Below are positions 32,102 through 53,351 of a stretch of 64,000 bases of DNA, in pieces (the first letter of the stretch is position 1; each line of letters starts with the position of its first letter). The position numbers and the translations under genes were made by a program. Source of the DNA: Desulfovibrio sp. (GTDB lineage: Bacteria > Desulfobacterota > Desulfovibrionia > Desulfovibrionales > Desulfovibrionaceae); the NCBI GenBank assembly GCA_016208105.1, contig JACQYS010000009.1, positions 1-64,000 on the forward strand, in the 5' to 3' direction. A model generated the notes under the pieces. That model was given only the letters and a program-made list of their open reading frames with translations, was not told where the DNA came from and did no database searches.

Positions 32102-32115
32102 TGCGATTGGCCCGC

Positions 32116-35028: not shown

Positions 35029-37196
35029 TGCAGTCTGATCTCCAGCTCTCCCGAGGAGAGGCCCGAAAGGTCGCCAATGCCGCGCTCATCGGCAACCAAC
35101 CAAAGCCGTTTTCCACCCACGGCAACGCCTTCAGCCTGAAGCCGCGCCCCGGGACGAAGGCCCCCGATGCTTATGCGGCCTTGAGACTTCGCGAACTCGA
35201 GTTTCGCCTGAATAACGCCTGTGGCCGCCTTGAAGCTGCGCACGATGCCACTGGCGGTTTTAAGATACGGTGTCTGCTTGAGCGTGTCCCCAGGTTTGCT
35301 CAGAACCAATCGGGCCCTTGTGGCCTCTGGTGCTAGGTGAACGTACATACCTTCGGGCTGGACATCGAAACCCAGGACATTCTCACATTTTGAGAGGTCC
35401 GGCTCCGGGGATTCCTTCTCCAGCCGGACGCTCAGGCAAGCGCCATAGTTTTCCACCAGATAAGAGCCTGGCCCGGCCTGGCTCACGCGGACATTCGTCC
35501 AATCCATGACGGAACGTATCCAGAAGGAAGTCCAGACCGGGGCAATGGGTTGGGAAAGGACCCAGGCGTAAACCTCCTTCAGAGCTTCGATGCCCGCGAC
35601 CTTTTCCGCGGTGAAGGTGTGATAGTAGATGTCTATGGGTTTCAAACGACGGGGGGACCCGGTGCGTTTCATGGTTTCGATAATGTTCCGGTAACCGTTG
35701 AAAGGGCCGCGCCAAAGGTTGGTAAGTATGTTGTCGTTTGCCTGTCCGATATGGATCTGATTCAGGCCGGGTCTCAACGGCCGGATGAGGGGGGCCACGC
35801 CGAAGAGGGAATCGTGGGCTGGGTCCCAGAGGGTGTCTCCTCCGTTGATGGCCAGTATTCCGTTCTCATTTGCCATTTGCTGGTGCTCGGCCAGAGGGTC
35901 GCAGGCACCGCTCCAGAAGAGCAGGCGGCAGGACTTTCCATCCGGGCACAGTTCGTCCGTGACGAATTCCACGGAGTTTACGATCTCTTTGAAGGCGTCG
36001 AACTTGTATCCCGGAATATCGAAAGCGAAGCGGTCGTCGTAACGGTCCTTTTGCGAACTCTCCGGATCCCAGAAAAAAGGATGAGAGAAGGTGTGTGAAG
36101 CGGGCTCAATGTTGTCGAGTTCCATGATCGAACGGGCCACGTTCATGAGGTGCTCGGAACCTTGCACCGCCGGGTCTATCTCCGCCTGAATCACGGAGTA
36201 GGAAATGGGGAAGTCGATGGTCTTGAAAATTGCATCCCGCATGATTTCGGCGCAGACCTTCTTCCGGTCGATCTGGTTCGTTCCGGAAAAACCATCAGCA
36301 TCAACATGGGAGAAGGCGACACGCAGGCCGTTTAACGTCGTCGGGTCCGGGATGGGCGTATTCTTAATATCAAGAGTTCTAGAGAGAAATGCAAAGGGGT
36401 CGATGTACCACTTGTGTTGAAATGACAAGGGGTCTTCCCAGTATGCATAGTCTGGCAATACTACCCCTCCAATTGATGAAAATGCCACAACGGAACTTGC
36501 TGAACTTGGATTATCTTTCTTCAAGACTGTAACAATAGGGACAGTCTCTTTGCCTATAGGCACAATGCAAGAATACATTGGCGGTGTATCTGGATAGGAA
36601 CGCTCGAATCCAGTAATTTCATTATTTATGCTTCCATATTGTAACTTAGTACGATCTCTTAGAAGGTCCCCAACAAATCTAAGCCCTAAACGAGAATATA
36701 TCTGAGAATGTAGATTATTTGCCTCCTGATTTGAGCGGTCTATGCTTGATCCCAATTCTCCTACAATAACAAGTCGTTTCCCATCATCAACATTATTTAG
36801 TACCCATTGCAGATAAGGAACTACATCTTCAACTGCAGATGAATTAAGAGCTACGATAATTGCGCGGACACCATCCATAATAATAGCATCTGGCAATGGA
36901 CGTTGAGAAATATCAACATATTCCGGTAGTAATCCATAATAGTTTAAAACAGTTTGATATCCCTGGCCAACCAAATTGTTCGTGGCGCTCTGCCCGGTGG
37001 CGCTATTATACAGTATTACGACCCGCCGCTCGATGGGTTGAGGTGCGGTTTGCACAGCGGCCTGAGGCTGGGACGGGGCCGCAGCCTTCGGTGCGGCCTG
37101 AGCCACGGCTGCCAGGCTCAGAGAAAGGACCAGGGCCACAATGCTAATGCGTGAGCGCACGAGTGGAGACCGTATCGAGTTTGGGAGTGCTGACAT
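35025..37196 (-). CDS. pelA: PelA deacetylase part (split PelA)
   Basis: This 723-residue periplasmic protein has a signal peptide ending near AVAQAAP. After a region of unknown fold (about 55-285) comes the Pel polysaccharide deacetylase domain: HVDADGF (Asp299 and Asp301) and SHTFSH (His368 and His372, the HxxxH metal site). It should remove acetyl groups and make Pel positively charged. In Pseudomonas the same protein also carries the glycoside hydrolase domain, which is encoded here by the preceding gene. Residues about 74-279 are encoded by a strikingly AT-rich stretch. It overlaps the hydrolase gene by 53 bases and pelB-TPR by four. Confidence 0.88.
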   Translation of the reverse strand: MSALPNSIRSPLVRSRISIVALVLSLSLAAVAQAAPKAAAPSQPQAAVQTAPQPIERRVVILYNSATGQSATNNLVGQGYQTVLNYYGLLPEYVDISQRPLPDAIIMDGVRAIIVALNSSAVEDVVPYLQWVLNNVDDGKRLVIVGELGSSIDRSNQEANNLHSQIYSRLGLRFVGDLLRDRTKLQYGSINNEITGFERSYPDTPPMYSCIVPIGKETVPIVTVLKKDNPSSASSVVAFSSIGGVVLPDYAYWEDPLSFQHKWYIDPFAFLSRTLDIKNTPIPDPTTLNGLRVAFSHVDADGFSGTNQIDRKKVCAEIMRDAIFKTIDFPISYSVIQAEIDPAVQGSEHLMNVARSIMELDNIEPASHTFSHPFFWDPESSQKDRYDDRFAFDIPGYKFDAFKEIVNSVEFVTDELCPDGKSCRLLFWSGACDPLAEHQQMANENGILAINGGDTLWDPAHDSLFGVAPLIRPLRPGLNQIHIGQANDNILTNLWRGPFNGYRNIIETMKRTGSPRRLKPIDIYYHTFTAEKVAGIEALKEVYAWVLSQPIAPVWTSFWIRSVMDWTNVRVSQAGPGSYLVENYGACLSVRLEKESPEPDLSKCENVLGFDVQPEGMYVHLAPEATRARLVLSKPGDTLKQTPYLKTASGIVRSFKAATGVIQAKLEFAKSQGRISIGGLRPGARLQAEGVAVGGKRLWLVADERGIGDLSGLSSGELEIRLQ

Positions 37197-38010
37197 AGGG
37201 GATGAAGCCGTGCTTGCGGGAAAATGCCGTGGCAGCCCTTATCCCTGAGTGGTCTTTGGGCGAAATGTAATCCAGGCTGAGTAAAGTCAGTTCCGGATTA
37301 GCCTTCCTGGCCATGGCCGCAGCGGCCAGCAACTGGGCTCTGTCGGGTTTACTGGTCAGCACGAACCGTTTCTTTTTGAAGTCGTAGTCGCCATAGAGGC
37401 ATTCAGCCAATACAAACTGAACCTTCGGCGCCAACTCCTGCCACAATGGAGCCGCCCGGTTGATACAAATAGGGATTTCCGGGAATCTATCTCTGATAGC
37501 CCCCACGAGATCCAGTGCCGCCTGCCGCATTCCGCTGAACTCATCGGGCTTCTGGTCTTCAAGGTAGAGGCTTGAGTCCAGGGTATCCAGAAAGACGCCA
37601 TCATACCCCCTGGCAAGGACATCAGTAACCAGCCGTTCCAGGACGAAAGCCCGCCACTGGGGCGCGCGAATATCAACCAGTTTCGAATTCCATGCTTCGC
37701 TTTTGCCCTGCAGGAAGGTCTCACTCTTGAGGCTGTCCCAGTAGCGGCCATCCATGTCGACTTCGCCCAGGCTTATATACCCCAGGGAAATCGGCTTTCC
37801 GCTTTTTTTGGCAGGTGGAGCCAAATGGCCAGATTCCAAAACCACCAGATCGAATCGGGTCAATGAGGGGTTGTCCTTGGAACCATAAAAACACGCCCAG
37901 CTGTCCACGCGGGGCAATCCCGCGGCCCAACAGCTGGAAGCCGCTAACAGGAAAGAGAGAGCCATGGCCATGACCATACGAGCCTTCTTGGGCCGCGAAG
38001 AGGAGATCAT
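37144..38010 (-). CDS. PelA-type glycoside hydrolase part (split PelA)
   Basis: This 288-residue secreted protein belongs to the GH114/GH166-like family, the fold of the PelA hydrolase domain that cuts Pel and partially N-acetylated galactosamine-rich polymers. It has a signal peptide (MVMAMALSFLLAASSCWA) and a TIM-barrel with RGYDGVFLDTLDS and VLAECLYGDYD as likely active-site strands. The domain covers the protein alone, with no deacetylase attached. An alternative start at 37977, with AAGAAGG upstream, gives the same signal peptide without eleven residues. It follows pelC by 17 bases. Confidence 0.85.
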   Translation of the reverse strand: MISSSRPKKARMVMAMALSFLLAASSCWAAGLPRVDSWACFYGSKDNPSLTRFDLVVLESGHLAPPAKKSGKPISLGYISLGEVDMDGRYWDSLKSETFLQGKSEAWNSKLVDIRAPQWRAFVLERLVTDVLARGYDGVFLDTLDSSLYLEDQKPDEFSGMRQAALDLVGAIRDRFPEIPICINRAAPLWQELAPKVQFVLAECLYGDYDFKKKRFVLTSKPDRAQLLAAAAMARKANPELTLLSLDYISPKDHSGIRAATAFSRKHGFIPYVSTPKLDTVSTRALTH

Positions 38011-38027
38011 ACTCGAATGTGTTGGCG

Positions 38028-38609
38028 CTATCCGGCTGTACCGGACTTGTGGGCGCCCTTGCGCAAGAATTCTTTCTGAAGGCTGTTCACAAGGTCTTTG
38101 CAAACCTTTTGGGCAGTGCTGGAGAGCGTGTCTCCCCCAAAGGAGCAACAACCACCCGCCTTCGATAAGGAGGCACCCCAGAGAATAGTGCCTGTGCCCA
38201 CGTCCATCAAACGGATGGCCACTCCGACCACGGGCTCTTCGTCGACACCGCGTTTGTAACGATACTCGGTGACCGATCCGAACACAGCGGCATCCACTCC
38301 GAGTTGAAGAGCCGTTTGACGCACGTTCTGATGGAGAGCCGCTTCTTCCAGATCCGTCTCTTTGCCCTGAAAGGCCTTCCATGATTCAGCATTGCTCATC
38401 ACACTGAACTGCTGGACGCTCTTGAGTTCAGTGAAAAGGAGTTCGCCTATTATCTGGCCCGCATACGGATGGGTGGTCAGGTTCGCCATAGGGAACACAG
38501 CCACTTTTCGCGGCATTGATCCCAACGCTTCCGTAGAGAACTGGGAAAGACTCGAACTTCCACAGCCTGCCAACATGCTGATCAATAGAAATAAACAGAT
38601 AATTCGCAT
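38028..38609 (-). CDS. pelC: Pel outer-membrane lipoprotein
   Basis: PelC (193 residues) is a lipoprotein: the signal peptide ends in the lipobox LAGC, with Cys16 lipidated by Lgt. In Pseudomonas PelC forms a dodecameric ring at the inner side of the outer membrane that guides Pel to the PelB pore. The CsgG-like fold is suggested by RKVAVFPMANLTTHPYAGQI and QLGVDAAVFGSVTEYRYKRG. It is the first gene of the pel operon here, whereas pelA and pelB come first in Pseudomonas. AGGAT stands five bases before the ATG. Confidence 0.88.
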   Translation of the reverse strand: MRIICLFLLISMLAGCGSSSLSQFSTEALGSMPRKVAVFPMANLTTHPYAGQIIGELLFTELKSVQQFSVMSNAESWKAFQGKETDLEEAALHQNVRQTALQLGVDAAVFGSVTEYRYKRGVDEEPVVGVAIRLMDVGTGTILWGASLSKAGGCCSFGGDTLSSTAQKVCKDLVNSLQKEFLRKGAHKSGTAG

Positions 38610-39193: not shown

Positions 39194-40210
39194 CTAGCGG
39201 CCAGTTGTCAGGTACTGCCGGTAGTCGCGGTAGAAAGCAGCCTGGAGTGGGCCCACTGAGGGCAAGGCGTATTCGGGAAGGGAGAAGGCCGTGATGCCCT
39301 GTTGCGCGTAACGCCCGGCCACAGCCAACTGTCTGGCCACCCGGGAGAAGTCCGCCGGTTCGGCCTGGAAGGGTTCTTTGTCCATGGGCTCGCCGTGGGT
39401 CTGGGTGAAAATTTCCACCACGGGGCGCAGGGTTCCCCCACCCTGGGCGACGCCCTTGGCCGCTGCCCCAAGGTAAACGGGGAGTTCTTCGAGGCTTAGC
39501 TTGCGCACGCCCACCCCGTCCTGAAGAAAGAAGAGTTCGATCCCCGCGGCCGCCGTCAATTCTCGCAACCATTCTTGATAAGCCGCTGGATCCAGGAAGC
39601 CGTTGACGAAACCGGAAATCCCCACTGGGCGGCCGGGATCGATGCGCCGCAGCCCTTCCCGCAGTGCTCGCACATGGTCCACTATGAGGTTTCGGCGCGG
39701 CCCGTTCCAGTTCACGTCGTCGAGTTCCTGGGGAAGGTACCAGCCTCCGAAGGCGGGCGAATCCTTGAACCGGGCGTGCACTTCCGTGGCCAAACGCAGG
39801 TTGTCCTGCTCCAGGCGGCGCAGGTATACCTCCACGACTTCAGGGGAGCGCGTGATCTTCGACCACCAGTCCTCTTGGTGGGTCAAGCCAAGGCGCAGGG
39901 TCATGCCGCGCGCCTGCGCCAGTGACAGAAGGTTCTCCAGCAGGGGAACACAGTCGGCCCCGCAATCTCCTTGCCTGAAGAAACGTACCTTCCCGTTGGC
40001 GCTCCACTGGACCACCAGCTCTTTGACGCCCAGGGCGGAAAGGTCGTCGAACATACGCTCCCAGCGTTCCTGGGGCCACGCGCCGTGGCCGCTCAGAGGC
40101 TGGAAGAAGCTGGCCTCGAAGCGAGGTGGTGGCGTGGGAAGGCTCTGGGCCTGAGCCCCCCAGGAACAGAGGAGGATGGCCAGGGTCGCCGTGAGCGTGC
40201 GGAGTGTCAT
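39194..40210 (-). CDS. DUF4434-type glycoside hydrolase-like secreted protein
   Basis: This 338-residue protein has a signal peptide (LTATLAILLCSWGAQAQ) and a TIM-barrel-like DUF4434 domain. Typical parts are SFFQPLSGHGAWPQERWERM, LGVKELVVQWSANG and GWYLPQELDDVNW. The domain looks like a glycoside hydrolase, with acidic residues in YLPQELDD as candidate catalysts. It is the last gene of the nfr cluster, 16 bases after the barrel gene. In E. coli the gene ybcH takes the same position after nfrA. A polymer-trimming or processing role in the periplasm is a reasonable inference. Confidence 0.78.
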   Translation of the reverse strand: MTLRTLTATLAILLCSWGAQAQSLPTPPPRFEASFFQPLSGHGAWPQERWERMFDDLSALGVKELVVQWSANGKVRFFRQGDCGADCVPLLENLLSLAQARGMTLRLGLTHQEDWWSKITRSPEVVEVYLRRLEQDNLRLATEVHARFKDSPAFGGWYLPQELDDVNWNGPRRNLIVDHVRALREGLRRIDPGRPVGISGFVNGFLDPAAYQEWLRELTAAAGIELFFLQDGVGVRKLSLEELPVYLGAAAKGVAQGGGTLRPVVEIFTQTHGEPMDKEPFQAEPADFSRVARQLAVAGRYAQQGITAFSLPEYALPSVGPLQAAFYRDYRQYLTTGR

Positions 40211-40226: not shown

Positions 40227-41597
40227 TCAGTAGTGCACGATGGTGGTCAGGTACGCGCCGTCGACGTTCTGTTCCGACGTCCTGTTGTAGAGCCGGCCGG
40301 CCTTGTACTGGGCCAGTATCTCCAGGTAGGAGCGCGGCGTTGTGTACCGGGTCTCGTTGAAAAGGTATTTGAACGAGATCCCAGCGCCCCCCTCCCAGAG
40401 TGAAAGCCGGTTGTCATCCGGTGTCCATATCCGGGCGTTGGCCACCAGATGGGGAGTGATCATGGCATTGCGCCCCACCTTGAAGGTCCACCCCTGGCGC
40501 ACCTCGCCGTTGAAGAGGAAGCGGCTGGGGCTGTCCAGGTAGCGGTCAGCTTCCAGATAGAGGTAGCTGAAGTTCCAGTTGGAACGTTCTGGGTCCAGGT
40601 CGTACCCGTTGGTCCAGGAGCCCATGGCACGCAGGAGCCAGTTGTCCTCGGCATTCTTGCCGATCTTGATCAACCGCTCGGCACCTAAGAAGATATTCTG
40701 GCTTTTCAGTGGCTTGTAGCGAAAGCCCACGGCAGCCTGGGTCGAATCGGGGTCGAAGTTGAAGCTTTTGCGCTCAAGAGTCCAGTTGATGCGCCCAACC
40801 AGTTGCAGGATGCGGTCGTCGCGCATGCCGATCACGGGGGGCGTCCAGGCCATCTCCAGGCCGCTTGCCGAGGGCTGGTAGATGCCGCCCTGGCCCCCGG
40901 GAGTGTCGGAAGCTCCGGCGCGGCTGGTGTAGTAGGTCATGTAGCCGGTGAGGGAGAAGCTCGTGTCCAGCTTTGAGACTTCCTTGCGCAGGCGATGGAC
41001 GGTCTCGCGCACGGCCTTGGCTTCCTCCTCGGTGCGGGCCGGGTAGAGGGGCTGGTTGTCGATGGCGGACTTGAAGCGCTCCATGGCCGTGCCGTTCTTG
41101 CACAGCACCATGTACGCGTAGCCGGCATCCTCCCAGAGACGAAGGCGTTCCGGTTCCAGAGCCAAGGCGCGGTCCCAGGCGGCAACCGCCTTTTGGCGCT
41201 TGCCCTGGGCCAGCAGGCAGTAGCCCATGTCCGCCAGATCCTGGGGATCCTCGCGGATGGCCAGGGCCTTGGAATAGTTTTCCACGGCCAGGTCGTTGCG
41301 CCCCATCGCCTGGTAGAACTTGGCCAGCTGCGAGAGGCTCTCCGGCGTGGGCTCGATGGCAAGCGATGCTTGCAAGGCTGCCTCGGCCTGTTCCGGCTCC
41401 TTGAGCTCCATGAGAGTTTTTGAGAGCTCGTCCAGGAAGAGCAGCTGGTCGCTACGGCTAAGCGATGCGGGGGGCTGGGCCTGGGCATCCTGGGCCAAGG
41501 CGCGGGGAGCAATGGCCAGCGGTGCTGCGATCCAGACCAGGGCCAGCAGGAACGCCCTAACAAAGGCCCGCCAGGCGGGGCGACGACCATTTTTCAT
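40227..41597 (-). CDS. nfrA: NfrA outer-membrane barrel part (split NfrA)
   Basis: This 456-residue exported protein has a signal peptide (AFLLALVWIAAPLAIAPRALA), about three TPR units (residues 60-185) and a C-terminal beta-barrel (about 212-456). The barrel matches the N4-adsorption-protein-A C-terminal type: AERLIKIGKNAEDNWLLRA, then MITPHLVANARIW and GGAGISFKYLFNETRY. In E. coli NfrA is one 990-residue protein with TPR part and barrel, the receptor for phage N4 and exporter of the NGR polysaccharide. Here the barrel is a separate gene whose ATG overlaps the stop of the TPR gene (ATGA). Confidence 0.87.
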   Translation of the reverse strand: MKNGRRPAWRAFVRAFLLALVWIAAPLAIAPRALAQDAQAQPPASLSRSDQLLFLDELSKTLMELKEPEQAEAALQASLAIEPTPESLSQLAKFYQAMGRNDLAVENYSKALAIREDPQDLADMGYCLLAQGKRQKAVAAWDRALALEPERLRLWEDAGYAYMVLCKNGTAMERFKSAIDNQPLYPARTEEEAKAVRETVHRLRKEVSKLDTSFSLTGYMTYYTSRAGASDTPGGQGGIYQPSASGLEMAWTPPVIGMRDDRILQLVGRINWTLERKSFNFDPDSTQAAVGFRYKPLKSQNIFLGAERLIKIGKNAEDNWLLRAMGSWTNGYDLDPERSNWNFSYLYLEADRYLDSPSRFLFNGEVRQGWTFKVGRNAMITPHLVANARIWTPDDNRLSLWEGGAGISFKYLFNETRYTTPRSYLEILAQYKAGRLYNRTSEQNVDGAYLTTIVHY

Positions 41598-44500
41598 CGG
41601 CCGAACCTCACCAGAAGTCCCTCTGGGGTGTTCTCCACTTTTTGATCGCCCGGTCTGCCCGCAAGGTCCAGCACCACACGCAGCTTGTCCGGGTGGAGGC
41701 CCGAGCGGACACCCTGGACGCGGCCGCCCGGACCGGACAACACTGCCTTGTCCTGCATGCGCCACTTGCCTGGAAGATCAAGAACTAGGCGGTTCGGGGA
41801 TTCAAGGGCGAAGACGGCCGGCCGGACATCAGAACCGACGCCCTTGAAGAGCACCATGGTCCCCGAGGCGTCGTCCGCCACGAGCACCACGGACACTGCC
41901 CTGGAGGAGTCCGGCGCCTGGGATGGCTGATCCGGGGGAGCCGCGGCTGGTGGGCGGCGCCCGGTCTGGAGAGCGGGGGCAGGCTGCCCGTCAGGCGATG
42001 CCTGCGTGATTCCTGGTCCGGTGGGCGGTGCTGCCTGCGCCGAAGGCACGGGCGAGCCTGAGCCCATTTTCTTGGCTGAAGCAGGCCGGTTCAATCCGGC
42101 CTCAACAAAGGACACTTGTTCGGTCCGTACACCAGCCAAGTCCAAGCCGGGCATTGCCTGGGCCTGAACAAGCCGTAAAAGCCGCAAGGCCTCCTGTGGG
42201 TTGCCATTTAAGCGTTCCATGCGTGCCAGGCGGAGCATCACCGCCGGGTCCTCCCGAACAGCAAGACTCTGACGGTAGGCCTCGGCGGCCTGGTTGTTGT
42301 CGCCGGTCCGGGCATAGAGGTTCCCCAGGGCGAAATAGTATTCACGCTTTTCTTCTTCGGAAAGTCCAGCCTGTTTGGGAAACACTTCCCTCATGTTGTG
42401 GATGGCCAGGCCCGGCTTGTCGAGCGCCTCATAGGAGCGGGCCATGGCCAGCGAGACTCGTGGCCCGGGCTTCTCCCCCTTCACCATCTGGAACTGTTCC
42501 AGGGCCTGGGCGTAGCGTTTGGCTTGGAAAAGGGCCAAGCCCATGGCGAACCGCGCACGCCATGGCTCCATGCCTTCACGCATGGCCTGCTCGAAGAGTT
42601 CCACGGCCTTGGCAGGCTCTGCGCCGCGCTGGGCTATGGTGGCCAGGGACACCAAAACATCAAGGCGCATGGCCTTGGGCAATGCGCCCGTGGCCAGCGC
42701 CTGATTCAGTGTCTGCCCGGCCAGGGTCATGTCGCCCTGGCGCAGGGCCAGCATCCCGGATCGTGCCAAGCCTTGGGCGCGCACCGCCAGTGGCAGCCCC
42801 GGCAACCGGAGCAGGCGCTCCAGTATGGGGCGGGCTTCTTCATCGCGGCCCGCGTCGAGCAGCTCGCCTGCCGCTCTGGCAAGCAGCTCAGCCCGGCCCG
42901 TAGGCATCTTGTCGTAGGAGAGGACGAAAGAGTGCGCGGCCCGCTCGTGGCGGCCGGTCATGGCCTCTAGCGTGCCCAAACGCTCCAGCAAATCGGCTTC
43001 CTTCTGGGTGTCCCCGGCGGCCAGGGGCAGTGCCTGACGCAAAAGGTCGGCAGCCTTTCCTGTCTGCCCAGTGAGGGCCAGGAGCACTGCCAATGAGGAC
43101 GTGGTCTCCAGGTCGGGCTTGGCGTCGCGGGCTGCCTGGGCGTAGCGGACCGCGCCCTGGATGTCGCCCAAGCGCTGGCTCAGGGCGGCCATACGGGAAA
43201 GCAGTGCCGCGTCGCCCGGCCGCCTGGACAGGGCCGTCCGCCACGCCTCCAGGGCCTCCCGGTGCTTCCCGGCCTTGTCGAGCAGAAAACCCATTTCCTC
43301 CGAAGCGGCTACCCGCGCCTCGTCCGTCAATTCTCCGGCCAGGGCGCGCTCCAGTATCCTGGCCGCCTCGCCGGGGTTGCCGGCCTTGTCCGTGAGCCCG
43401 GCCAGTCTGAGCAGACGCTGGGCCGTAGGGGAAGCCTCCAGGGCCTTGCGTTGGGCCAGGGCCGCCTCCTGAAAACGGCCCAGACGCTCCAGGCTGGAGG
43501 CGAGTCCTTCCAGGGCGGACACGGGTTTGTCCCCCCCTGCCGCCTGCGCGAAGATTTCCGTGGCGGCCGCATCGTCTCCGGCCAGGGAGAGGGCGTTGGC
43601 CTGTCGAATGAGCTGGCGTTCGCGTTCAGCCGGGCCCTTGGCCGAGGAGGCCAGTTCCGCAAAGATTTGCGCCGCCTCGCCCGGCCTGCCCGCCTGGATC
43701 AGGGCGTTGGCAAAGAGTTCACGAGCGGCGGGTGTGGTTTCAAGGGATTGTGCCTTACGCGCATATTCCACTGCCTGGCCGGGCTCCTTGCGTCGCATTG
43801 CGTTATCAGCCAAGGCGCGAAGAGTCGCGGGAGTATCCGGCAGTATCCGAAGGCTCTCCAGCAGACGCTCCCTGGCCCCGTCCAGATCGCCCATATCGGT
43901 GAGCCCTTGAGCCAGAACGGCCAGCGCGTCCGTCTTGTCTTTGGGCGTTTGGGCGCCGGCCAGGACTCGTTCCAGCAGAATCAACGCTTCAGGAGCACGG
44001 CCAAGCCCCAGGAGCGCCTGCGAACGCAACAGCATCGCCACGGGGGAGTCCGCCCCGCTCTTCATCGCGTCTAAGAGTTCCAGGGCCTGTGCATACCGCT
44101 TCTGGCGCAGCCGTATGGCGGCCAGCCCGGCCAAGGCCTGGCGTGCGGATTCCTGGTCCAGGGCCGGGTCTTGAAGCAAGAGTTCGTAATCCGCTGCCGC
44201 CGGGGTGTCGCGGTTCAGGCGGGAAAGAAGGTTGGCCCGCACGAGACGGAGCTTGGCCAAGCCCGGATGATCCTTGAGGATGGCGTCGGCACGGCCCAGG
44301 GCCTCGTCGATGCGGCCCTCGTCGGCCAAGAGGTTGACGAAGAGTTCCTGCACCTTGAAATCGGTGGGGACTATCTCCAGGTATTGAGCGAATTCGGCAA
44401 CGGCATCGGTACGGCGCCCCTGGGAGAGCAGACGGTAGGCCTTGTCCAGGTGCGGGAATGAGCGCAGACGGGTGAGCTCTCGCGTGAACCAGTTACCCTC

Positions 44501-44680
44501 CAGCACCACCGAGTCCGGTAAAGTCTGGGCCTCGGCAACCGGCACATGGAGAACGAAGAACATGAACGCGGTGGCAAGCGCCAGGAGGGCCATGCGAAAG
44601 GCATGACGCCATCCTGTTCGGGCCTGCGGAGTAGGGGCACGGTGAGGGCCTCGCCTCACCATGGAATCCAAAACGTGCAT
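41594..44680 (-). CDS. NfrA-like TPR scaffold with C-terminal AMIN-type domain (split NfrA)
   Basis: This 1,028-residue protein has an N-terminal hydrophobic export segment (MALLALATAFMFFVLHVPVAEAQ) and a long TPR array (about 75-870). A proline/alanine-rich linker follows, and then an AMIN-like domain near the C-terminus (SPNRLVLDLPGKW and LRVVLDLAG), a fold that binds peptidoglycan or secretin-type partners. E. coli NfrA has no such separate scaffold. The ATG at 44680 lies 15 bases after nfrB ends, with GGAG and GAGG upstream. The likely job is to hold the exporter in the cell wall and pass polymer to the barrel. Confidence 0.8.
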   Translation of the reverse strand: MHVLDSMVRRGPHRAPTPQARTGWRHAFRMALLALATAFMFFVLHVPVAEAQTLPDSVVLEGNWFTRELTRLRSFPHLDKAYRLLSQGRRTDAVAEFAQYLEIVPTDFKVQELFVNLLADEGRIDEALGRADAILKDHPGLAKLRLVRANLLSRLNRDTPAAADYELLLQDPALDQESARQALAGLAAIRLRQKRYAQALELLDAMKSGADSPVAMLLRSQALLGLGRAPEALILLERVLAGAQTPKDKTDALAVLAQGLTDMGDLDGARERLLESLRILPDTPATLRALADNAMRRKEPGQAVEYARKAQSLETTPAARELFANALIQAGRPGEAAQIFAELASSAKGPAERERQLIRQANALSLAGDDAAATEIFAQAAGGDKPVSALEGLASSLERLGRFQEAALAQRKALEASPTAQRLLRLAGLTDKAGNPGEAARILERALAGELTDEARVAASEEMGFLLDKAGKHREALEAWRTALSRRPGDAALLSRMAALSQRLGDIQGAVRYAQAARDAKPDLETTSSLAVLLALTGQTGKAADLLRQALPLAAGDTQKEADLLERLGTLEAMTGRHERAAHSFVLSYDKMPTGRAELLARAAGELLDAGRDEEARPILERLLRLPGLPLAVRAQGLARSGMLALRQGDMTLAGQTLNQALATGALPKAMRLDVLVSLATIAQRGAEPAKAVELFEQAMREGMEPWRARFAMGLALFQAKRYAQALEQFQMVKGEKPGPRVSLAMARSYEALDKPGLAIHNMREVFPKQAGLSEEEKREYYFALGNLYARTGDNNQAAEAYRQSLAVREDPAVMLRLARMERLNGNPQEALRLLRLVQAQAMPGLDLAGVRTEQVSFVEAGLNRPASAKKMGSGSPVPSAQAAPPTGPGITQASPDGQPAPALQTGRRPPAAAPPDQPSQAPDSSRAVSVVLVADDASGTMVLFKGVGSDVRPAVFALESPNRLVLDLPGKWRMQDKAVLSGPGGRVQGVRSGLHPDKLRVVLDLAGRPGDQKVENTPEGLLVRFGR

Positions 44681-44697
44681 CCGCCTCAGCTCCGCTC

Positions 44698-46968
44698 CTA
44701 GACCTGTTCGCACTTTTTAGCGAGAGCGTCCTTGATGGACGCGTTCTTCACACCCATGCCCTCCAGGATGTCACCCAGGAGGCGTACTTTGGCCGTCTGG
44801 ATTCGTAACGCATGGTCCAGTTGGCTTTGCGTGATGTAGGAATTCTCTACGAGAAAATTGCCGAAACGGCCAGTGGGGCTTCCACTCTGGAAAAAGTCCG
44901 ATATGGCTTGCTGGAGCCGCTTGAACGGCAAGAGCCCTTCCATGACAAGTATGTCTCCCAGACGCGAATAGCTCCCTCGTTGTTCTCTGAGGGCGCTGTC
45001 CAACTGTTCCGAGGTGATCACGCTTTCTTGCAGCAGGCGTTCCCCCAGGTGGCAGGACGCGGGGACATCCTCGACCTGCAGCCGTTCATACCCGCGTTGC
45101 AGGGCAAAGGCCATATTGCTCTTGGATGTGAGAACCATCTCCAGAGGACGCCCCAGGGCCTCTTCCAGGCGGCTGCGATCCGCGCTTCCCAGGGGGCTCA
45201 GCACGGCGACCCGCAACGCCCCGGCGGTATCCAGCCCTAGGGGGAAGATGTCGTTTCTCTGGGCTATTTCCTTGGGGATAAGGCCCAGCACATTCAGAGG
45301 AACGGCATAGGGGTCGATCTGGGAAGTGCTCAGGCGGAACTGCGTTCCCAGGGTCTGCACCAGGTCGTCCTCCTTTATGAGCCCCAGGGAGAGCAGCACA
45401 TCGCCCAGGGCGCGGCCGGTCTTTTTCTGTTGTTCCAGGGCCTCATCCAACTGGTGGACCGTAATGTAACGTTTGTCCAGCAGCAGGTCGCCCAGGCGGC
45501 GGCGATAGGCACGCATTTCTTCTTCGGAGGGGTAAACGTGGGCCGTCTTGTCCCAGGCGATGATCTTGCCGGTGACCAGGTAGCGGGCATACATGCGCAG
45601 TGCGCGCATTGTGGCGCAGAAGTTGATCAAGTTCCCCCAGAAAAGGCGTGGAACAGACAGAAGCCCCTGCCACGGGCCGTAGATGCGCGTGGTGTACAGG
45701 CCACGCCACAACATGCGCCAGAGAAGGAAGAACATGTTGATGTACAGCATAATCCAGAGAGGCGAATCCGTGTCCACCAGGGGCGGATACCTGTATCCCT
45801 CCGGGTCGAGCGCCCTGTAGAGCCAGAACCCCCCGATGATGGGCACGAGCATGTTGCCCAGCATGTTCACCTGGTTGGTCAGGAGGGACTTTCGGTCGCG
45901 CGCGAGCATGTAGCGTGTCCAGAAGTTGCCTTGCCACCCGATGGATGCCCAGCCCTGGAGCGCGATGCCGATGACCCATCTGGATTTCTGCCGGATGGCC
46001 GTGCTCAAGGTGCCGGGGAAGAACTCCTGGATGACCACGTACTCGCGGCGAATCCCCTCCCGGGGGCGGCCGAATATCCCGCGTTTCTTGACCTTGCGCA
46101 GGATGGCGTGGCGTACGAAAATCTGCTTGAAGCCGTGTTTTCCAAGGCGCATGCCGAAATCGTAGTCCTCGGTGAGGGAATTGATGTTGAAGAGCTGGTT
46201 GTTGGATTCCGCGGCCAGAGTATCCAGCGCGCGCCGGCTGTAGGCGCTGCCCACCCCGGCCGAGGGTACGCTCTTGCTCAGCACTTCGCGAACGGTCATG
46301 TCCTTGCAGTGGTTCTCGGCGAACTCGTCCAGGTAATGCCCGCGCGTGAGGTTCCACCACACCCCAGGCAATGGAAACACGGGCAACTGCACCATGTCCT
46401 TGGCCGGAATCAGGTAGTTGAAGAGCTTGAGGTAGAGCGGATGGACGATGTCCTCGGAGTCGTTCATCACGAAGATTTCGAACGTGAGGTTGTTGTCCTT
46501 CTCGAAAACCTTGATGCCCTCGTAGACCCAGTTGAGGCAATCGGCCTTGTTGGTGGGGCCGTCCTTTGGGCAGACGATTCGCTGGACATTGTCGAAACTC
46601 TCGCGGGCGATCTCCACCTCGCGCTGGGTGGCCTGGTCGTTGGGATAGGTTCCCACAAAGATATAGTAGTTCGAGTAGTTTACGCTCCGAATGGTGTTGG
46701 TGAGCATCTTGCGGATCACTGCGGACTCGTCCCAGCATGGAATCATGACAGCTATCAGCTTTTCGGGCACGGACAGCAGCTTTTGCTCAGTCAGCGGCTC
46801 GAACTTGGGCAAAATGAACAATCTGCGGTACACTAAGCGCACCAGGTAGACGAAATCGAAGAAGAGTTCGTCTATGCCGCTCAGGAAGAAGACGATGCTC
46901 AGGGCGATGAGCACGAGCTTGAGCCCCAGCAGGGCGAACGGAGCAATCAGATCAAAATCCCACATCAT
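44698..46968 (-). CDS. nfrB: NfrB glycosyltransferase with three tandem MshEN-type c-di-GMP motif pairs
   Basis: NfrB (756 residues) is an inner-membrane GT2 polymerase, E. coli NfrB being the c-di-GMP-activated synthase of a ManNAc-containing polysaccharide and needed for phage N4 infection. After one or two N-terminal helices the GT2 domain shows FVMNDSEDIVHP, TEDYDFGMRLG and QKSRWVIG (QxxRW), then more membrane helices. The C-terminal 270 residues contain MshEN-type pairs of 24-residue motifs spaced by five residues: 491-543, 640-692 and 701-753, for example RLGDLLLDKRYITVHQLDEA, KKTGR as spacer, then ALGDVLLSLGLIKEDDLVQT. MshEN motifs bind cyclic-di-GMP. The gene starts four bases after wecB ends. 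Confidence 0.9.
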   Translation of the reverse strand: MMWDFDLIAPFALLGLKLVLIALSIVFFLSGIDELFFDFVYLVRLVYRRLFILPKFEPLTEQKLLSVPEKLIAVMIPCWDESAVIRKMLTNTIRSVNYSNYYIFVGTYPNDQATQREVEIARESFDNVQRIVCPKDGPTNKADCLNWVYEGIKVFEKDNNLTFEIFVMNDSEDIVHPLYLKLFNYLIPAKDMVQLPVFPLPGVWWNLTRGHYLDEFAENHCKDMTVREVLSKSVPSAGVGSAYSRRALDTLAAESNNQLFNINSLTEDYDFGMRLGKHGFKQIFVRHAILRKVKKRGIFGRPREGIRREYVVIQEFFPGTLSTAIRQKSRWVIGIALQGWASIGWQGNFWTRYMLARDRKSLLTNQVNMLGNMLVPIIGGFWLYRALDPEGYRYPPLVDTDSPLWIMLYINMFFLLWRMLWRGLYTTRIYGPWQGLLSVPRLFWGNLINFCATMRALRMYARYLVTGKIIAWDKTAHVYPSEEEMRAYRRRLGDLLLDKRYITVHQLDEALEQQKKTGRALGDVLLSLGLIKEDDLVQTLGTQFRLSTSQIDPYAVPLNVLGLIPKEIAQRNDIFPLGLDTAGALRVAVLSPLGSADRSRLEEALGRPLEMVLTSKSNMAFALQRGYERLQVEDVPASCHLGERLLQESVITSEQLDSALREQRGSYSRLGDILVMEGLLPFKRLQQAISDFFQSGSPTGRFGNFLVENSYITQSQLDHALRIQTAKVRLLGDILEGMGVKNASIKDALAKKCEQV

Positions 46969-46972
46969 CTTG

Positions 46973-48148
46973 TTACCAGGACAGCTTCAAATTGAACTGC
47001 TCGCTAGGCTCCAGAAGGGGATAGCTGCCGCCGGACCAGCGCAACACCGCCTGGACAATGCGCTCGGAGGCGCGGCCATCGCCGTAGGGGTTGCCTCGCC
47101 CGGTCATGGCCTCGCGGGCCTTGGGGTCCGAGAGGATTCGCGAGGCTTCTGTGACGATGCGCGCTCTGTCCACGCCCACCAGGATGGCCTGTCCGTTCAG
47201 GCTGGCTTCGGGACGTTCGGTGACCGTGCGCAGCACAAGCACCGGAGTGTCGAAGGTGGGGGCCTCCTCCTGGATCCCGCCGGAATCCGTGAGGATCAGC
47301 TCCGCACGCTGCATCAGATGGATGATTCCCGGGTAGTCAAGTGGCTCCACCAGATGCACGCCGGGACAATCACCCAACACGGTCTGCACCACTTGGCGCA
47401 CATTTGGATTGAGGTGCATTGGGTAGACCAGGGCTACATCCGGGAAGGCGTGGGCCAGGTCGCGCAGGGCCAGGCAGATGCGCTCCAGACCTCCGTCGAA
47501 GGATTCGCGACGGTGGGAAGTGACCAACACCAGACGCTTGCCATCCAGGGGAAGCCCTTCCAAAGGCGTCCCGGCAGTGTTGTACGGGATGGCCGCGAGT
47601 TCCAGGAGAGCGTCCACCACGGTGTTGCCAGTCACCACGATGTTGCGCTCCGGATAGCCCTCACGCATCAGTTCGTCGCGTGCGCCTGAGGTTGGTGCGA
47701 AGTGCAGTTCAGCCAAAACACTGGTTATTTTGCGGTTGGCTTCCTCGGGATAGGGATTGGCCAGGTCGTGGCTGCGCAGCCCGGCCTCCACGTGCCCCAC
47801 GGGTATCCTTTGATAGAAGGCGGCAAGTGTGGCCGCGAGCACCGTGGTGGTGTCGCCCTGCACAAGGAGCAGTTGGGGCTTGAACTCCTGGAGCGCGCAG
47901 GTCATGGCGGTGAGCGTCGCCGCGGTGAGGTCGGGCAGGGTCTGGTTGTCGCGCATGAGGCGCAGGTCCCTCTCTACCTCCAATCCGAAGGGGGCCAGGG
48001 CCTGGTCGAGCATCTGCCGGTGTTGGCCGGTGGAGATCACCGACACATCGAAGGCGTCCGCCCGGGCGCGCATGGCCTTGACCACTGGCGCAAGCTTGAT
48101 GACCTCGGGGCGTGTACCGAGTGCTACGGCTATGCGCAATTTATTCAT
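46973..48148 (-). CDS. wecB: UDP-N-acetylglucosamine 2-epimerase (non-hydrolysing)
   Basis: WecB (391 residues) interconverts UDP-GlcNAc and UDP-ManNAc in the cytoplasm. Typical motifs are ALGTRPEVIKLAPVV, VQGDTTTVLAA, HVEAGLRSHD, TSHRRESF, PMHLNPNV and TDSGGIQEEAP. It is the first gene of the nfr cluster and directly precedes nfrB, so it probably supplies UDP-ManNAc to the polymerase; E. coli WecB does this from a distant locus. The leader contains a nested inverted repeat about 80 bases upstream. The ribosome binding site is weak. Confidence 0.95.
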   Translation of the reverse strand: MNKLRIAVALGTRPEVIKLAPVVKAMRARADAFDVSVISTGQHRQMLDQALAPFGLEVERDLRLMRDNQTLPDLTAATLTAMTCALQEFKPQLLLVQGDTTTVLAATLAAFYQRIPVGHVEAGLRSHDLANPYPEEANRKITSVLAELHFAPTSGARDELMREGYPERNIVVTGNTVVDALLELAAIPYNTAGTPLEGLPLDGKRLVLVTSHRRESFDGGLERICLALRDLAHAFPDVALVYPMHLNPNVRQVVQTVLGDCPGVHLVEPLDYPGIIHLMQRAELILTDSGGIQEEAPTFDTPVLVLRTVTERPEASLNGQAILVGVDRARIVTEASRILSDPKAREAMTGRGNPYGDGRASERIVQAVLRWSGGSYPLLEPSEQFNLKLSW

Positions 48149-50281: not shown

Positions 50282-50514
50282 GCAACCGGTCGGATAAGAA
50301 AAGGAATTTTTGGCGCATCCGTGAATTCCTGGCCTCAAACGGTCTTTCAATGGCCGCTGTTGGTCGCGAGGTGGGCGTGAGCAGAAATCTTGTGAGGGAG
50401 ACCCTCCTGGGCATGCGCAACAATAAAAAAGTGCTCCTTCACATGCGCTACCTGGGCTGCCCGGCGCAGTGGCTCCATCTGCCTGAATGCTTGACCACGA
50501 AGAAAGCTGCTTAA
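50278..50514 (+). CDS. Small prophage helix-turn-helix protein
   Basis: This 78-residue protein contains a helix-turn-helix (LASNGLSMAAVGREVGVSRN, then LVRETLLGMRNNKKVLLHMR). Size and position next to the transposase gene fit a Ner-like early regulator of Mu-type phages. It starts at GTG overlapping the previous stop. It ends 11 bases before the transposase start. Confidence 0.7.
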   Translation: MSNRSDKKRNFWRIREFLASNGLSMAAVGREVGVSRNLVRETLLGMRNNKKVLLHMRYLGCPAQWLHLPECLTTKKAA

Positions 50515-50525
50515 CGAGCTTATCC

Positions 50526-52589
50526 ATGGCAGACGCATACACTTCCCAGGAACTTGCCGGATTCCTTAGCGTTGTGGTCAGCTCGGTCCTGCGCCGAGCT
50601 AAGCGTGAAGACTGGCAAGCCCGCAAGCGTCAGGGGCGAGGCGGAGGGAATGAATGGCTCCTCGCCTCAATGCCGACTGACACGCGCGACGCCATTGCAG
50701 CGGCCATGATTGCATCAGACCCGCAGGATACTTTGGCGCACGCCCCGGCCATCCCTGATACTTTTAGCAAGTTCTCCCAGAAACAGCGGGATACGGCGTT
50801 AGCGCGTCTCCTCTTCGTTAGAGAAATCGAACGCGTCTCCCAGGCCGTGCAGAAGGAAAAGGCCATCCGGCAACTTGTGGAGGCTTCCACTAAAGGAAAG
50901 CTTTCCCCATCGTTGGCCAAAGCTGTTGCCGTAGCCAATGACCGCTATGGCAACGGTGAGCATCGCGGTCTTTCTCGCCGCCGCCTGTATGAGTGGTGCT
51001 CCTTGTTCGCCGAGGGCGGCGAGGCTGCCCTGGTTCCCAGGCACCAGGGCAAGGACATGACCGTGCCCGCCTGGGCTCCAGCCTTCCTGGCCATATTCCA
51101 GCAGCCGCAAAAGCCCACCATTGCTGACGCCTACCGGCGGTTCGCCGACGAATACAAGGGCAAGCAGCCCTCAATTTTCGCCGTTCGCCGCTGGCTGGAC
51201 AAGGTGGCCCTTCCGGACAGGGAAGTCGGACGCGCCACCGGCAACGCTCTGCTTAAGCTTCGTCCGCACAAGCGGCGTAAGACCGATGAACTTTGGCCCG
51301 GCGACGTGTACACGGCCGACGGAACCACCTTCGACGGGGAAATTCAGCACCCACTTCACGGCCAGCCCTTCAAGCCGGAAATAACCCTGGTGATCGACGT
51401 GGCCACGCGCCGGTGCGTGGGGTTGTCCCTGGGGCTGGCCGAAAGCGCCTTCACCGTATTGGACGCCCTGCGCATGGCCTGCCTGTTCGGCGGGATTCCG
51501 GCCATCCTCTACACGGACAACGGCTCCGGCTACAAAAACGCGCTTATGCGAAGCGAAAGTACAGGCATGCTGGCCCGCCTGGGCATCGAAATGCGCAACA
51601 GCATCCCCGGACGCCCGCAAGGCAAGGGCCTGATGGAGCGCGCCGTGAAAACCATCTGCGGCCCGGTGGCCAAACGTTTGCCGTCCAGCATGCACGCGGA
51701 CATGGACGTCGATGCGGGCAAGAAGGTCTACAAGATCACTCGGGCGGAGATCAACAAGCTCGGAAAATCAAATCTGTTGCCCACCTGGGAAGCGTTCAAG
51801 ACCGCAATGCTGGCCCGCGTGGAGGAATACAACGCCACCCCGCATCGTGGCCTGCCCAAGATCGAGAACAGCTCCACAGGGAGGCGTCGGCATCTGTCCC
51901 CGGATGAAGCCTGGCGCAATTACGAACTGCGCAACTGGGAGCCGGTGCGGGTGGCCGAGTCCATCAAGGACGAGCTGTTCATGCCGGGCATTCCTCGCAA
52001 AGTGCGCAACGGCATGGTGCAGCTGTTCAACGGCAGCTATTACTCTGAAGATTTGGCCGACTTCCACGGCGATTATGTGGAAGTCCGCTACGACATTTGG
52101 GATTCCTCACGGGTATACGCCTGGACCACCAGGGGCGAGAAAATCTGTACCGCCGTGCTCGACGGAAACTCCATCCCCTATTTTCCCCAAAACCAGGTTG
52201 AGGCCGCACGTGACAGGCGGGCCAAGGCCCAAATCAGCCGCCTTGCGGACAAAGTCGCACGGATCGCTCCGGGCGCGTCCGTCCAGCTGCCGGAAGCGCC
52301 CCAGTACGACACCCTTGTGGCGGACACCCTCAGCGCACCGAAGCCCGTGGTGTTGGACTTGCCCGTCATCAAACCCGCAGAAGCCGCCGCACCCGCAAGA
52401 CGTCCTCTCTTTACGAGCGTGCAAGAACGTTACGCCTGGCTCATGCGCAACCGGGACCGTTGGACCGGCGCGGATGACGACTGGGCGGCCGAATATGTGC
52501 GCTCTCCGCACTACGCGGACCTGCACGATTACTACCGTTACGAAGGCATAGCCTGGGACGGTTCCACCGTTCAGGCCCAAGCGAAATAG
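50526..52589 (+). CDS. Mu-type transposase A
   Basis: This MuA-like DDE transposase (687 residues) joins prophage ends to target DNA in integration and replicative transposition. A Mu-type DNA-binding N-terminus (residues about 1-50, SQELAGFLSVVVSSVLRRAK) and a second helical binding region (about 130-235) precede the catalytic core. The DDE residues are Asp265 (VYTADGT), Asp331 (LYTDNGSG) and Glu371 (GKGLMERA), close to Asp269, Asp336 and Glu392 of Mu. A beta-barrel and C-terminal domain follow (GSYYSEDLADFHGDYVEVRY). The ATG at 50526 gives the natural family N-terminus. It appears intact. Confidence 0.95.
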   Translation: MADAYTSQELAGFLSVVVSSVLRRAKREDWQARKRQGRGGGNEWLLASMPTDTRDAIAAAMIASDPQDTLAHAPAIPDTFSKFSQKQRDTALARLLFVREIERVSQAVQKEKAIRQLVEASTKGKLSPSLAKAVAVANDRYGNGEHRGLSRRRLYEWCSLFAEGGEAALVPRHQGKDMTVPAWAPAFLAIFQQPQKPTIADAYRRFADEYKGKQPSIFAVRRWLDKVALPDREVGRATGNALLKLRPHKRRKTDELWPGDVYTADGTTFDGEIQHPLHGQPFKPEITLVIDVATRRCVGLSLGLAESAFTVLDALRMACLFGGIPAILYTDNGSGYKNALMRSESTGMLARLGIEMRNSIPGRPQGKGLMERAVKTICGPVAKRLPSSMHADMDVDAGKKVYKITRAEINKLGKSNLLPTWEAFKTAMLARVEEYNATPHRGLPKIENSSTGRRRHLSPDEAWRNYELRNWEPVRVAESIKDELFMPGIPRKVRNGMVQLFNGSYYSEDLADFHGDYVEVRYDIWDSSRVYAWTTRGEKICTAVLDGNSIPYFPQNQVEAARDRRAKAQISRLADKVARIAPGASVQLPEAPQYDTLVADTLSAPKPVVLDLPVIKPAEAAAPARRPLFTSVQERYAWLMRNRDRWTGADDDWAAEYVRSPHYADLHDYYRYEGIAWDGSTVQAQAK

Positions 52590-52607
52590 ACAAACGCGGG
52601 AGAAGTC

Positions 52608-53351
52608 ATGCGTAAGCAATTCGTCAAAACCGAAAACTACTCGCACTTTACGGCAGGGATACAGGCCGTGGAACAGCGCGGGGCCGCCGAAGCGGGAATG
52701 ATGCTTGTTCACGGGTTCCCCGGCTTCGGCAAAAGCTGCATCGTAGAGCGTTGGGCCAGCGAAACCGGAGCCGTGTTTTTGCGCGCCAACGTGGACTGGA
52801 CCCCGAAATACTTCCTGGTGGAGCTGGCCAAGACTCTCAGGGTGGACCCCAGCGGCACAGCGCAGCAACTCTTCGGCCGCCTACTTGAACGAGTGATTGA
52901 GGCGCAGTTGCCCATCGTGATCGACGAGGCCGAATTCACCCTCCACAAGAACGCCGCAGCCCTGGAAAAGGTTCGCGACCTCTCGGACCGGGCCGAAGTG
53001 ACGGTGGTGCTCATCGGCATGGAGAGAATCCAACAGCTGGTGGCCAGGCACAAACAGATCAACAGCCGCATAGCGCATGCGGTGGAGTTCAAGCCCGCCA
53101 CCCAGTCGGACGTGGCCCACGCCTGCGAGCAGCTGTCTGAGGTCACCTTGAGCGGCGCGCTCAAGGCCGAAGTGCATCGCATATCGGGCGGACGCATGCG
53201 GGAAGTGCTGAACGTTATTGCGACAATCGAGCGCATCGCCAAGCTGAACGGCCTGAAAGGCGTGGACGTCGCCGACTTGGAAGACACTCCCCTCTCCTAC
53301 GATTGGGTCAGCCGCACCACTAAGAGCGTGCGCAAGGCCGGGGGGCGTTAG
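52608..53351 (+). CDS. MuB-like target-selection ATPase
   Basis: This AAA+ ATPase (247 residues) binds DNA, picks target sites and activates MuA. Walker A is GFPGFGKS (residues 36-43), Walker B is LPIVIDEAE (Asp106, Glu107), and GMERIQQLVARHKQINSRI holds sensor and arginine regions. It is shorter than Mu MuB (312 residues), lacking most of the N-terminal DNA-binding part, as in other Mu-like phages. It follows the transposase gene by 18 bases and abuts the next gene. Confidence 0.9.
   Translation: MRKQFVKTENYSHFTAGIQAVEQRGAAEAGMMLVHGFPGFGKSCIVERWASETGAVFLRANVDWTPKYFLVELAKTLRVDPSGTAQQLFGRLLERVIEAQLPIVIDEAEFTLHKNAAALEKVRDLSDRAEVTVVLIGMERIQQLVARHKQINSRIAHAVEFKPATQSDVAHACEQLSEVTLSGALKAEVHRISGGRMREVLNVIATIERIAKLNGLKGVDVADLEDTPLSYDWVSRTTKSVRKAGGR

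Follow-up and report, generated by a model that had tools for sequence, protein, structure and literature searches.

The nfrB gene and its six C-terminal motifs

The window analyzed here, a stretch of 64,000 nucleotides from Desulfovibrio sp. (GenBank assembly GCA_016208105.1, contig JACQYS010000009.1), contains nfrB, a gene encoding a GT2 glycosyltransferase whose C-terminal region carries motifs of the MshEN type, a domain that binds cyclic-di-GMP (c-di-GMP). Downstream from a canonical MshEN domain, this region holds a second conserved module, the tail (residues 636–756), which likely provides a second c-di-GMP binding site, as judged from sequence conservation and predicted structure. The features of the locus are collected in Table 1.

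The GT2 domain displays the signatures of processive enzymes (DxD, TED, and QxxRW) and is followed by MshEN according to both Pfam and NCBIfam. The residues D170, T266-E267-D268, Q327, R330, and W331 are invariant among 18 NfrB sequences, including that of E. coli. The protein scored 669 bits against model PRK15489, above the cut-off of 537, and 645 bits against the NfrB equivalog NF008411, below the cut-off of 1170. Together, these data support the identification of the window protein as NfrB, a sugar-polymer synthase.

The NCBIfam model NF053729 (c-di-GMP_motif, 53 positions) matched three stretches of NfrB (142 bits), the best of which is residues 491–543 (module 1). Scored alone, the two tail stretches each exceeded the curated cut-off of 38 bits (54.8 bits for residues 641–690 and 42.4 bits for residues 701–751). 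A hidden Markov model (HMM) restricted to module 1 of the 18 sequences gave 39.7 and 28.5 bits on the remainder of the C-terminus, and the best of 2000 shuffled sequences gave 5.8 bits. The C-terminus of NfrB thus contains six MshEN-type motifs, far above chance, which we designated 1a and 1b (module 1) and 2a, 2b, 3a, and 3b (tail). A Pfam scan of the tail returned no MshEN match and only DUF4388 and DUF2949, both below their cut-offs. A sequence search of the PDB with E-values up to 1 returned 14 sequences, none of them named NfrB.

A first-pass annotation of the window had described three tandem pairs of 24-residue motifs, at residues 491–543, 640–692, and 701–753. Codon arithmetic showed that these residues correspond exactly to the bases it listed, the profile scores and the shuffle control bear out the MshEN-type character of the pairs, and the replacements of Arg that it reported were recovered (A520, H640, and L730). 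Motif 3b, listed there with 24 residues, is a 23-residue version with a turn of 4 residues in both structural models described below, versus 5 in the other tail motifs, so that I745, L749, and K752 occupy the places of L17, L21, and Q24 and the closing Gln is missing. The annotation had noticed the loss of the last Gln in motif 2b (F692) and had overlooked that in motif 3b. Counting three sites from a 24-5-24 spacing was rejected, as the sixth motif breaks the register. The turn Gly (position 10) is replaced in motifs 1a, 2a, and 3a (R500, S649, and S710).

Table 1. Features of the nfr locus and its surroundings (positions in the window).
Feature	Position	Strand	Evidence or remark
nfrB, GT2 synthase with C-terminal MshEN region	44698..46968	-	756 residues; Pfam and NCBIfam
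Module 1, canonical MshEN_N: motifs 1a (491–514) and 1b (520–543)	45340..45498	-	NF053729 positions 1–53; fold match to 5htl_B
MshEN_C subdomain, about residues 548–630	45079..45327	-	Pfam MshEN 551–627; alpha/beta part of the model
Motif 2a, residues 640–663	44980..45051	-	Half of putative outer bundle
Motif 2b, residues 669–692	44893..44964	-	First half of inner MshEN_N bundle
Motif 3a, residues 701–724	44797..44868	-	Second half of inner MshEN_N bundle
Inner MshEN_N-like bundle, residues 667–727	44788..44970	-	Candidate second c-di-GMP site; superposes on MshE 7–64, Z 9.8
Motif 3b, residues 730–753	44710..44781	-	23-residue, degenerate; half of putative outer bundle
wecB-like UDP-GlcNAc 2-epimerase	46973..48148	-	Epimerase_2, 372 bits
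NfrA part 1, TPR protein with C-terminal AMIN	41594..44713	-	1039 residues; start by longest frame
NfrA part 2, TPR and NfrA_C barrel	40227..41765	-	Start by longest frame; scanned from 41609
DUF4434 protein in ybcH position	39194..40210	-	
pel-like exopolysaccharide locus	24976–38382	-	PelG 413 bits; PelF 519 bits; also large TPR proteins
GAF and weak GGDEF protein of the pel-like locus	28929–30338		
GH114 protein of the pel-like locus	37144–38382		
Mu-like element	50487–53351	+	Mu-type transposase (Mu-transpos_C, rve, Mu DNA-binding domain), then AAA/TniB-like ATPase

Structure, spread, and pairing of the tail motifs

AlphaFold2 models were obtained for residues 478–756 (56 sequences; predicted local distance difference test, pLDDT, 92.5; predicted template modeling score, pTM, 0.87) and for the tail alone (residues 628–756; 27 sequences; pLDDT 86.5; pTM 0.71). 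Module 1 comprises a 53-residue two-motif bundle followed by MshEN_C, in the MshE fold, according to Pfam, NCBIfam, and the model. Module 1 and MshEN_C superposed on c-di-GMP-bound MshE (5htl_B) with a Z of 12.4 and a root-mean-square deviation (rmsd) of 2.8 over 138 residues (Foldseek E-value 5.7e-8), in agreement with the full MshEN domain proposed by the first-pass annotation. The tail-only model is all-helical, with eight helices, the alpha/beta part being confined to module 1. The ten chains best aligned with the tail model by VIA-align all belong to MshE, PilF GSPII-B, or PilB, and each aligns from model residue 40–42 to 99–101, which corresponds to residues 667–728. The best match was to the ligand-binding subdomain of 5htl_B (rmsd 1.8 over 58 residues, 31% identity). 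Motifs 2b and 3a are therefore both located in a single predicted four-helix MshEN_N bundle. The structural comparison with MshE that the annotation had suggested recovered, in the predicted models, module 1 and one MshEN_N bundle in the tail, but not the claimed pairing of the tail motifs. A fold search with the whole C-terminus was set aside as evidence on the tail, module 1 filling its MshEN rows.

Chains of the CARD type aligned over 57–59 residues within positions 7–129 of the tail model (Z 3.8–5.0). This span, of which only the first and last aligned residues were considered, would fit the helices of motifs 2a and 3b taken together. On this basis, 2a and 3b appear to make up a second, worn bundle that encloses the inner one.

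The search for relatives of NfrB matched 104 loci (numbered with the prefix L); one scan, of genome contigs, was limited to the 80 best among a larger number of loci. Two of the matched loci, L002 and L005, both represent the window and were counted once. Six loci (three open at a contig end and three identical) and a short piece of L097 were dropped, leaving 97 proteins, the window's included. Classes were defined by alignment positions filled to at least 70%, not by motif scores, and the smaller ones carry some alignment noise: 81 proteins had the tail, 9 had module 1 only, and 7 had no MshEN position. Positions 2b and 3a were filled in all 81 tails. All four tail positions were filled in 43 of the 97 proteins, including those of the window and E. 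coli, and the idea of a triple array peculiar to this genome was rejected. Within the window's family, all 17 matches, from 16 of 288 genomes including the window's, extended to at least query residue 735. These results indicate that the tail is common in the NfrB family and not special to the window protein.

The smaller classes provide a natural series for probing the role of each part. By alignment position, no MshEN was present in L011, L036, L037, L042, L046, L047, and L048. Eight of the nine proteins limited to module 1 also lacked MshEN_C, ending after 1a and 1b (L012, L038–L041, L044, L045, and L106); L041 was counted as having module 1 although the HMM gave no match there. In Hafnia alvei GB001, nfrB (L097, 5914–8220) contains an in-frame stop near residue 123, intact copies of the gene occurring in other Enterobacterales loci. 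The genome of the window encodes two more proteins with MshEN matches (L001 and L003, contigs C19 and C1, open frames of 562 and 573 residues).

NfrB of E. coli K-12 aligned over its full length with the window protein, all four tail motif positions being present in a worn form. Model NF053729 detected two stretches in E. coli NfrB versus three in the window protein. HMMs for modules 2 and 3, built from the 18 sequences that include E. coli, gave 61.1 and 59.6 bits, and the HMM for module 1 alone gave 15.1 and 10.7 bits on the tail copies (best shuffle 11.8). The annotation had presented E. coli NfrB as a contrasting one-domain case, a distinction that does not hold since the same two extra stretches are found there. 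Two publications on the E. coli protein refer to a single MshEN domain, with one of them adding "a domain of unknown function" (PMC8669469, PMC8669472). A description of the NfrB tail was not found in the open-access literature, supplements not being covered.

Pairing of the tail motifs was analyzed in a set of 79 proteins, consisting of the 97 minus the 16 devoid of a tail and minus the divergent L034 and L103. Pair profiles were derived from 21 of these, and 54 were scored (24 two-motif, 12 Pseudomonas-type, and 18 gamma/beta tails), L070, L073, L080, and L094 being left out. Nineteen of the 24 two-motif tails scored best with the 2b+3a profile, 14 of them by at least 20 bits. The same profile was best for all 12 Pseudomonas-type tails, with margins of 0.9–7.8 bits; this group (10 Pseudomonas and 2 Thalassospira) has an effective number of 1.1 and counts close to one observation. 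A motif-by-motif test, independent of spacer length, classified the first tail motif as b-type in two-motif (16/24), Pseudomonas-type (12/12), and gamma/beta (21/22) tails, and the second as a-type in 19/24, 12/12, and 19/22, respectively.

Information at the ligand positions (2, 3, 17, 21, and 24) was calculated over the 79 proteins (effective number 44). It reached 2.38 bits in 2b and 2.61 bits in 3a, close to the values for the two motifs of module 1 (2.66 and 2.96), versus 1.44 in 2a and 0.72 in 3b. Ligand positions were more conserved than core positions in 1a, 1b, 2b, and 3a, level with them in 2a (1.44 versus 1.39), and below them in 3b (0.72 versus 0.83). In 3a, Gly3 was present in 76 of the 79 proteins, as was Gln or Asn at position 24; in 2b, Gly3 was present in 66, and the residue conserved at position 24 was aromatic rather than Gln. 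The lengths of the stretches preceding 2b and following 3a covaried, a pattern that would be anticipated if 2a and 3b formed one unit (Spearman coefficient 0.62 for the 79 proteins and 0.79 without three proteins having long extra C-terminal parts, both uncorrected for kinship). Pairing by ancestry gave no family-wide answer, since 2b preferred the 1a model in 36 of the 79 proteins and the 1b model in 40, the figures for 3a being 44 and 35. Taken together, two-motif tails, conservation of ligand positions, and predicted structure indicate that 2b+3a is probably the pairing unit of the tail, and not the 640–692 and 701–753 pairs that the annotation had described as tandem units, although similarity between motifs in the window clade favors the latter.

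Number of c-di-GMP binding sites

The reading that we favor, with about even confidence, combines a canonical MshEN site, a second MshEN_N core likely to bind c-di-GMP, and a structural outer shell. NfrB would be an inner-membrane GT2 synthase switched on by c-di-GMP, producing, by analogy with E. coli, a polymer from UDP-N-acetylmannosamine that would leave through the NfrA proteins. The canonical domain (residues 491–630) would bind one c-di-GMP and gate the synthase. In the tail, the core formed by 2b and 3a would be a second MshEN_N four-helix bundle, devoid of MshEN_C and retaining almost all of the ligand residues (R669, L670, G671, L685, and I689 in 2b; R701, F702, G703, L717, L721, and Q724 in 3a). 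It deviates at I689, F692, and F702 and retains both Gly3 residues and the second Gln24, the first being replaced by Phe. This core may bind a second c-di-GMP, probably more weakly, and motifs 2a and 3b would pack around it as a mainly structural worn bundle. With two sites, the synthase could respond at two c-di-GMP levels. The genome of the window, which contains 41 GGDEF matches, very likely makes c-di-GMP.

Binding of a second c-di-GMP by the inner tail bundle is considered likely in view of the two Gly residues that are kept and of what has been reported for relatives. Changes of the Gly residues of MshE abolish binding, and those of Arg9, Asp12, and Gln32 cost at most about fivefold (PMC5013675). 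The first motif residue may be K or L (PMC5013675, PMC11731258), and the MshEN_N of MshE still binds c-di-GMP without MshEN_C, at 0.35 µM (PMC5013675). In E. coli, a fragment of NfrB that includes the tail (residues 414–745) binds c-di-GMP with a dissociation constant of 1.0 µM, and changes of G491, the module-1 Gly, are the most damaging (PMC8669469).

Several observations weigh against this reading. The Foldseek E-value for the tail is 0.14 only, fumarase domains reach a Z of 6.2 over the same tail range, and helical bundles readily give middling Z values by chance; sequence is therefore needed, too, to tie the tail to the MshEN_N family. As judged from record titles, all 19 two-motif tails best fitted by 2b+3a belong to Hyphomicrobiales or Burkholderiales, and the five others (from Kiritimatiellae, Aminicenantes, and others) fit 3a+3b in four cases and 2a+2b in one. 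This taxonomic restriction lowers our confidence in the favored reading. Gamma/beta tails fit 3a+3b best in 13 of 18 cases and 2b+3a in 5, and do not decide the pairing in the pair-profile test; their ligand positions in 2b are not above the core positions (2.09 versus 2.16). In the window clade, ligand positions of 2a exceed the core positions (1.89 versus 1.48), and position 21 of 2b is not L, I, V, or M in 16 of 21 proteins, the window keeping Ile. Position 24 of 2b is neither Gln nor Asn in 72 of the 79 proteins (Phe, Tyr, His, or other), and E. coli NfrB has Ala at the 2b Gly. Finally, motifs 1a, 2a, and 3a of the window protein are mutually 50% identical; across its clade, 2a and 3a score on average 5.8 and 4.4 bits higher with the 1a than with the 1b model, and 2b and 3b lean to the 1b model by 1.1 and 2.0 bits. 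This similarity suggests that the tail may come from duplication of whole units, followed by pairing across the junction.

The main alternative, which we regard as rather unlikely, is that the tail is a structural or dimerization element, the inner bundle having kept the MshEN_N fold and lost c-di-GMP binding, with module 1 as the only sensor. Replacement of Gln24 in 2b and the polar residue found at its position 21 in most of the window clade are in line with such a loss, for which there are precedents: PilF GSPII-A, changed at Gln and Gly positions, has retained the fold without binding c-di-GMP (PMC12002112, PMC11731258), and XpsE has likewise lost binding (PMC5013675). Changes of G491 in module 1 also abolish infection of E. 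coli by phage N4. However, infection of the G491L mutant is restored by extra DgcJ (PMC8669472), which is explicable by a second site and equally by residual binding to module 1. A purely structural role also accounts poorly for the conservation of ligand positions of 2b and 3a above the core over 79 proteins and for the presence, in the window protein, of both tail-bundle Gly residues, whose change abolishes binding in MshE.

Two further explanations are improbable. Residues 640–692 and 701–753 might each form an MshEN_N bundle, allowing up to three c-di-GMP molecules to bind: the 53-position profile accommodates both stretches in that register, PMC5013675 speaks of MshEN_N units in tandem, and the identity between 1a, 2a, and 3a, the motif preferences of the window clade, and the best fit of most gamma/beta tails point in the same direction. 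We nonetheless consider this quite improbable, as the tail model pairs residues 669–692 with 701–724 in all ten best rows, most two-motif tails keep 2b+3a, and 3b, which has no closing Gln, shows the lowest conservation of the motifs. Window NfrB probably has two c-di-GMP sites at most, not three. It is also quite improbable that the tail serves mainly to dock a partner protein (a diguanylate cyclase or NfrA, for example), with the MshEN_N fold reused for protein contact. The direct interaction between NfrB and DgcJ in E. coli and the absence of the tail from 16 of 97 NfrB-type proteins, which makes it dispensable for synthesis as such, would fit this role, but the conserved positions are those of the ligand type rather than others.

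Returning to the canonical site and nested second core, we tentatively extend this arrangement, at somewhat less than even confidence, to NfrB synthases widely, perhaps including that of E. coli: a cross-junction 2b+3a second c-di-GMP site nested in a worn 2a+3b outer bundle. MshEN control over a polysaccharide synthase and phage N4 entry has been studied in E. coli NfrB, which has been read as having one site. A second conserved bundle of the MshEN_N type, if confirmed, would alter the reading of its binding data and mutants, and two sites of unequal affinity would render polymer synthesis responsive at two c-di-GMP thresholds. The number of signal molecules to which NfrB responds may therefore be two, and not one or three. 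The tail module is something overlooked in a known system, open to direct testing, and does not define a new type of system. The results also suggest that MshEN motifs may pair across a duplication, in which case counting motifs in order may misplace domain borders and site numbers in other proteins.

Genomic context and comparison with known systems

The genes for the wecB-like epimerase, NfrB, the TPR/AMIN protein, the TPR/NfrA_C protein, and the DUF4434 protein are consecutive on one strand, as in operons that associate NfrB with the NfrA exporter, YbcH, and WecB. The gene set is that of an ordinary nfr operon, except that NfrA is encoded by two genes. Immediately downstream of the operon is a pel-like exopolysaccharide locus, which places two polymer systems of the c-di-GMP type next to each other; the GAF and weak GGDEF protein of this locus is presumably PelD-like, by position. 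A Mu-like element is also found beside the nfr operon.

The closest relative among characterized systems, E. coli NfrB, is a c-di-GMP-activated glycosyltransferase of the phage N4 receptor system that shares with the window protein the GT2 and MshEN domains and a tail with four motif positions. The two operons also share the NfrA and YbcH partners and a short overlap between nfrB and nfrA. The E. coli tail is more worn, combining the Ala at the 2b Gly with the lack of Arg there, NfrA is encoded by one gene in E. coli and by two in the window, and a wecB-like gene adjoins nfrB in the window.

MshEN of Vibrio cholerae MshE (PDB 5htl) resembles the whole of module 1, whereas its likeness to the inner tail bundle is limited to MshEN_N. 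In comparison with MshE, the tail bundle lacks MshEN_C, has an 8-residue spacer and Phe in place of the first Gln, and is surrounded by two extra motifs. The nearest precedent is PilF of Thermus thermophilus, which also has several MshEN-type units of unequal conservation per chain: two of its three GSPII domains bind c-di-GMP, with dissociation constants of 17 and 460 nM (PMC11731258). PilF displays the spacing of whole GSPII domains on an ATPase, with a C-subdomain after each unit, whereas in window NfrB only module 1 has an alpha/beta part and a bare MshEN_N is held between two half-motifs on a glycosyltransferase. The (MshEN_N)2 proteins of Wang et al. 2016 (PMC5013675) likewise contain more than one MshEN_N without MshEN_C.

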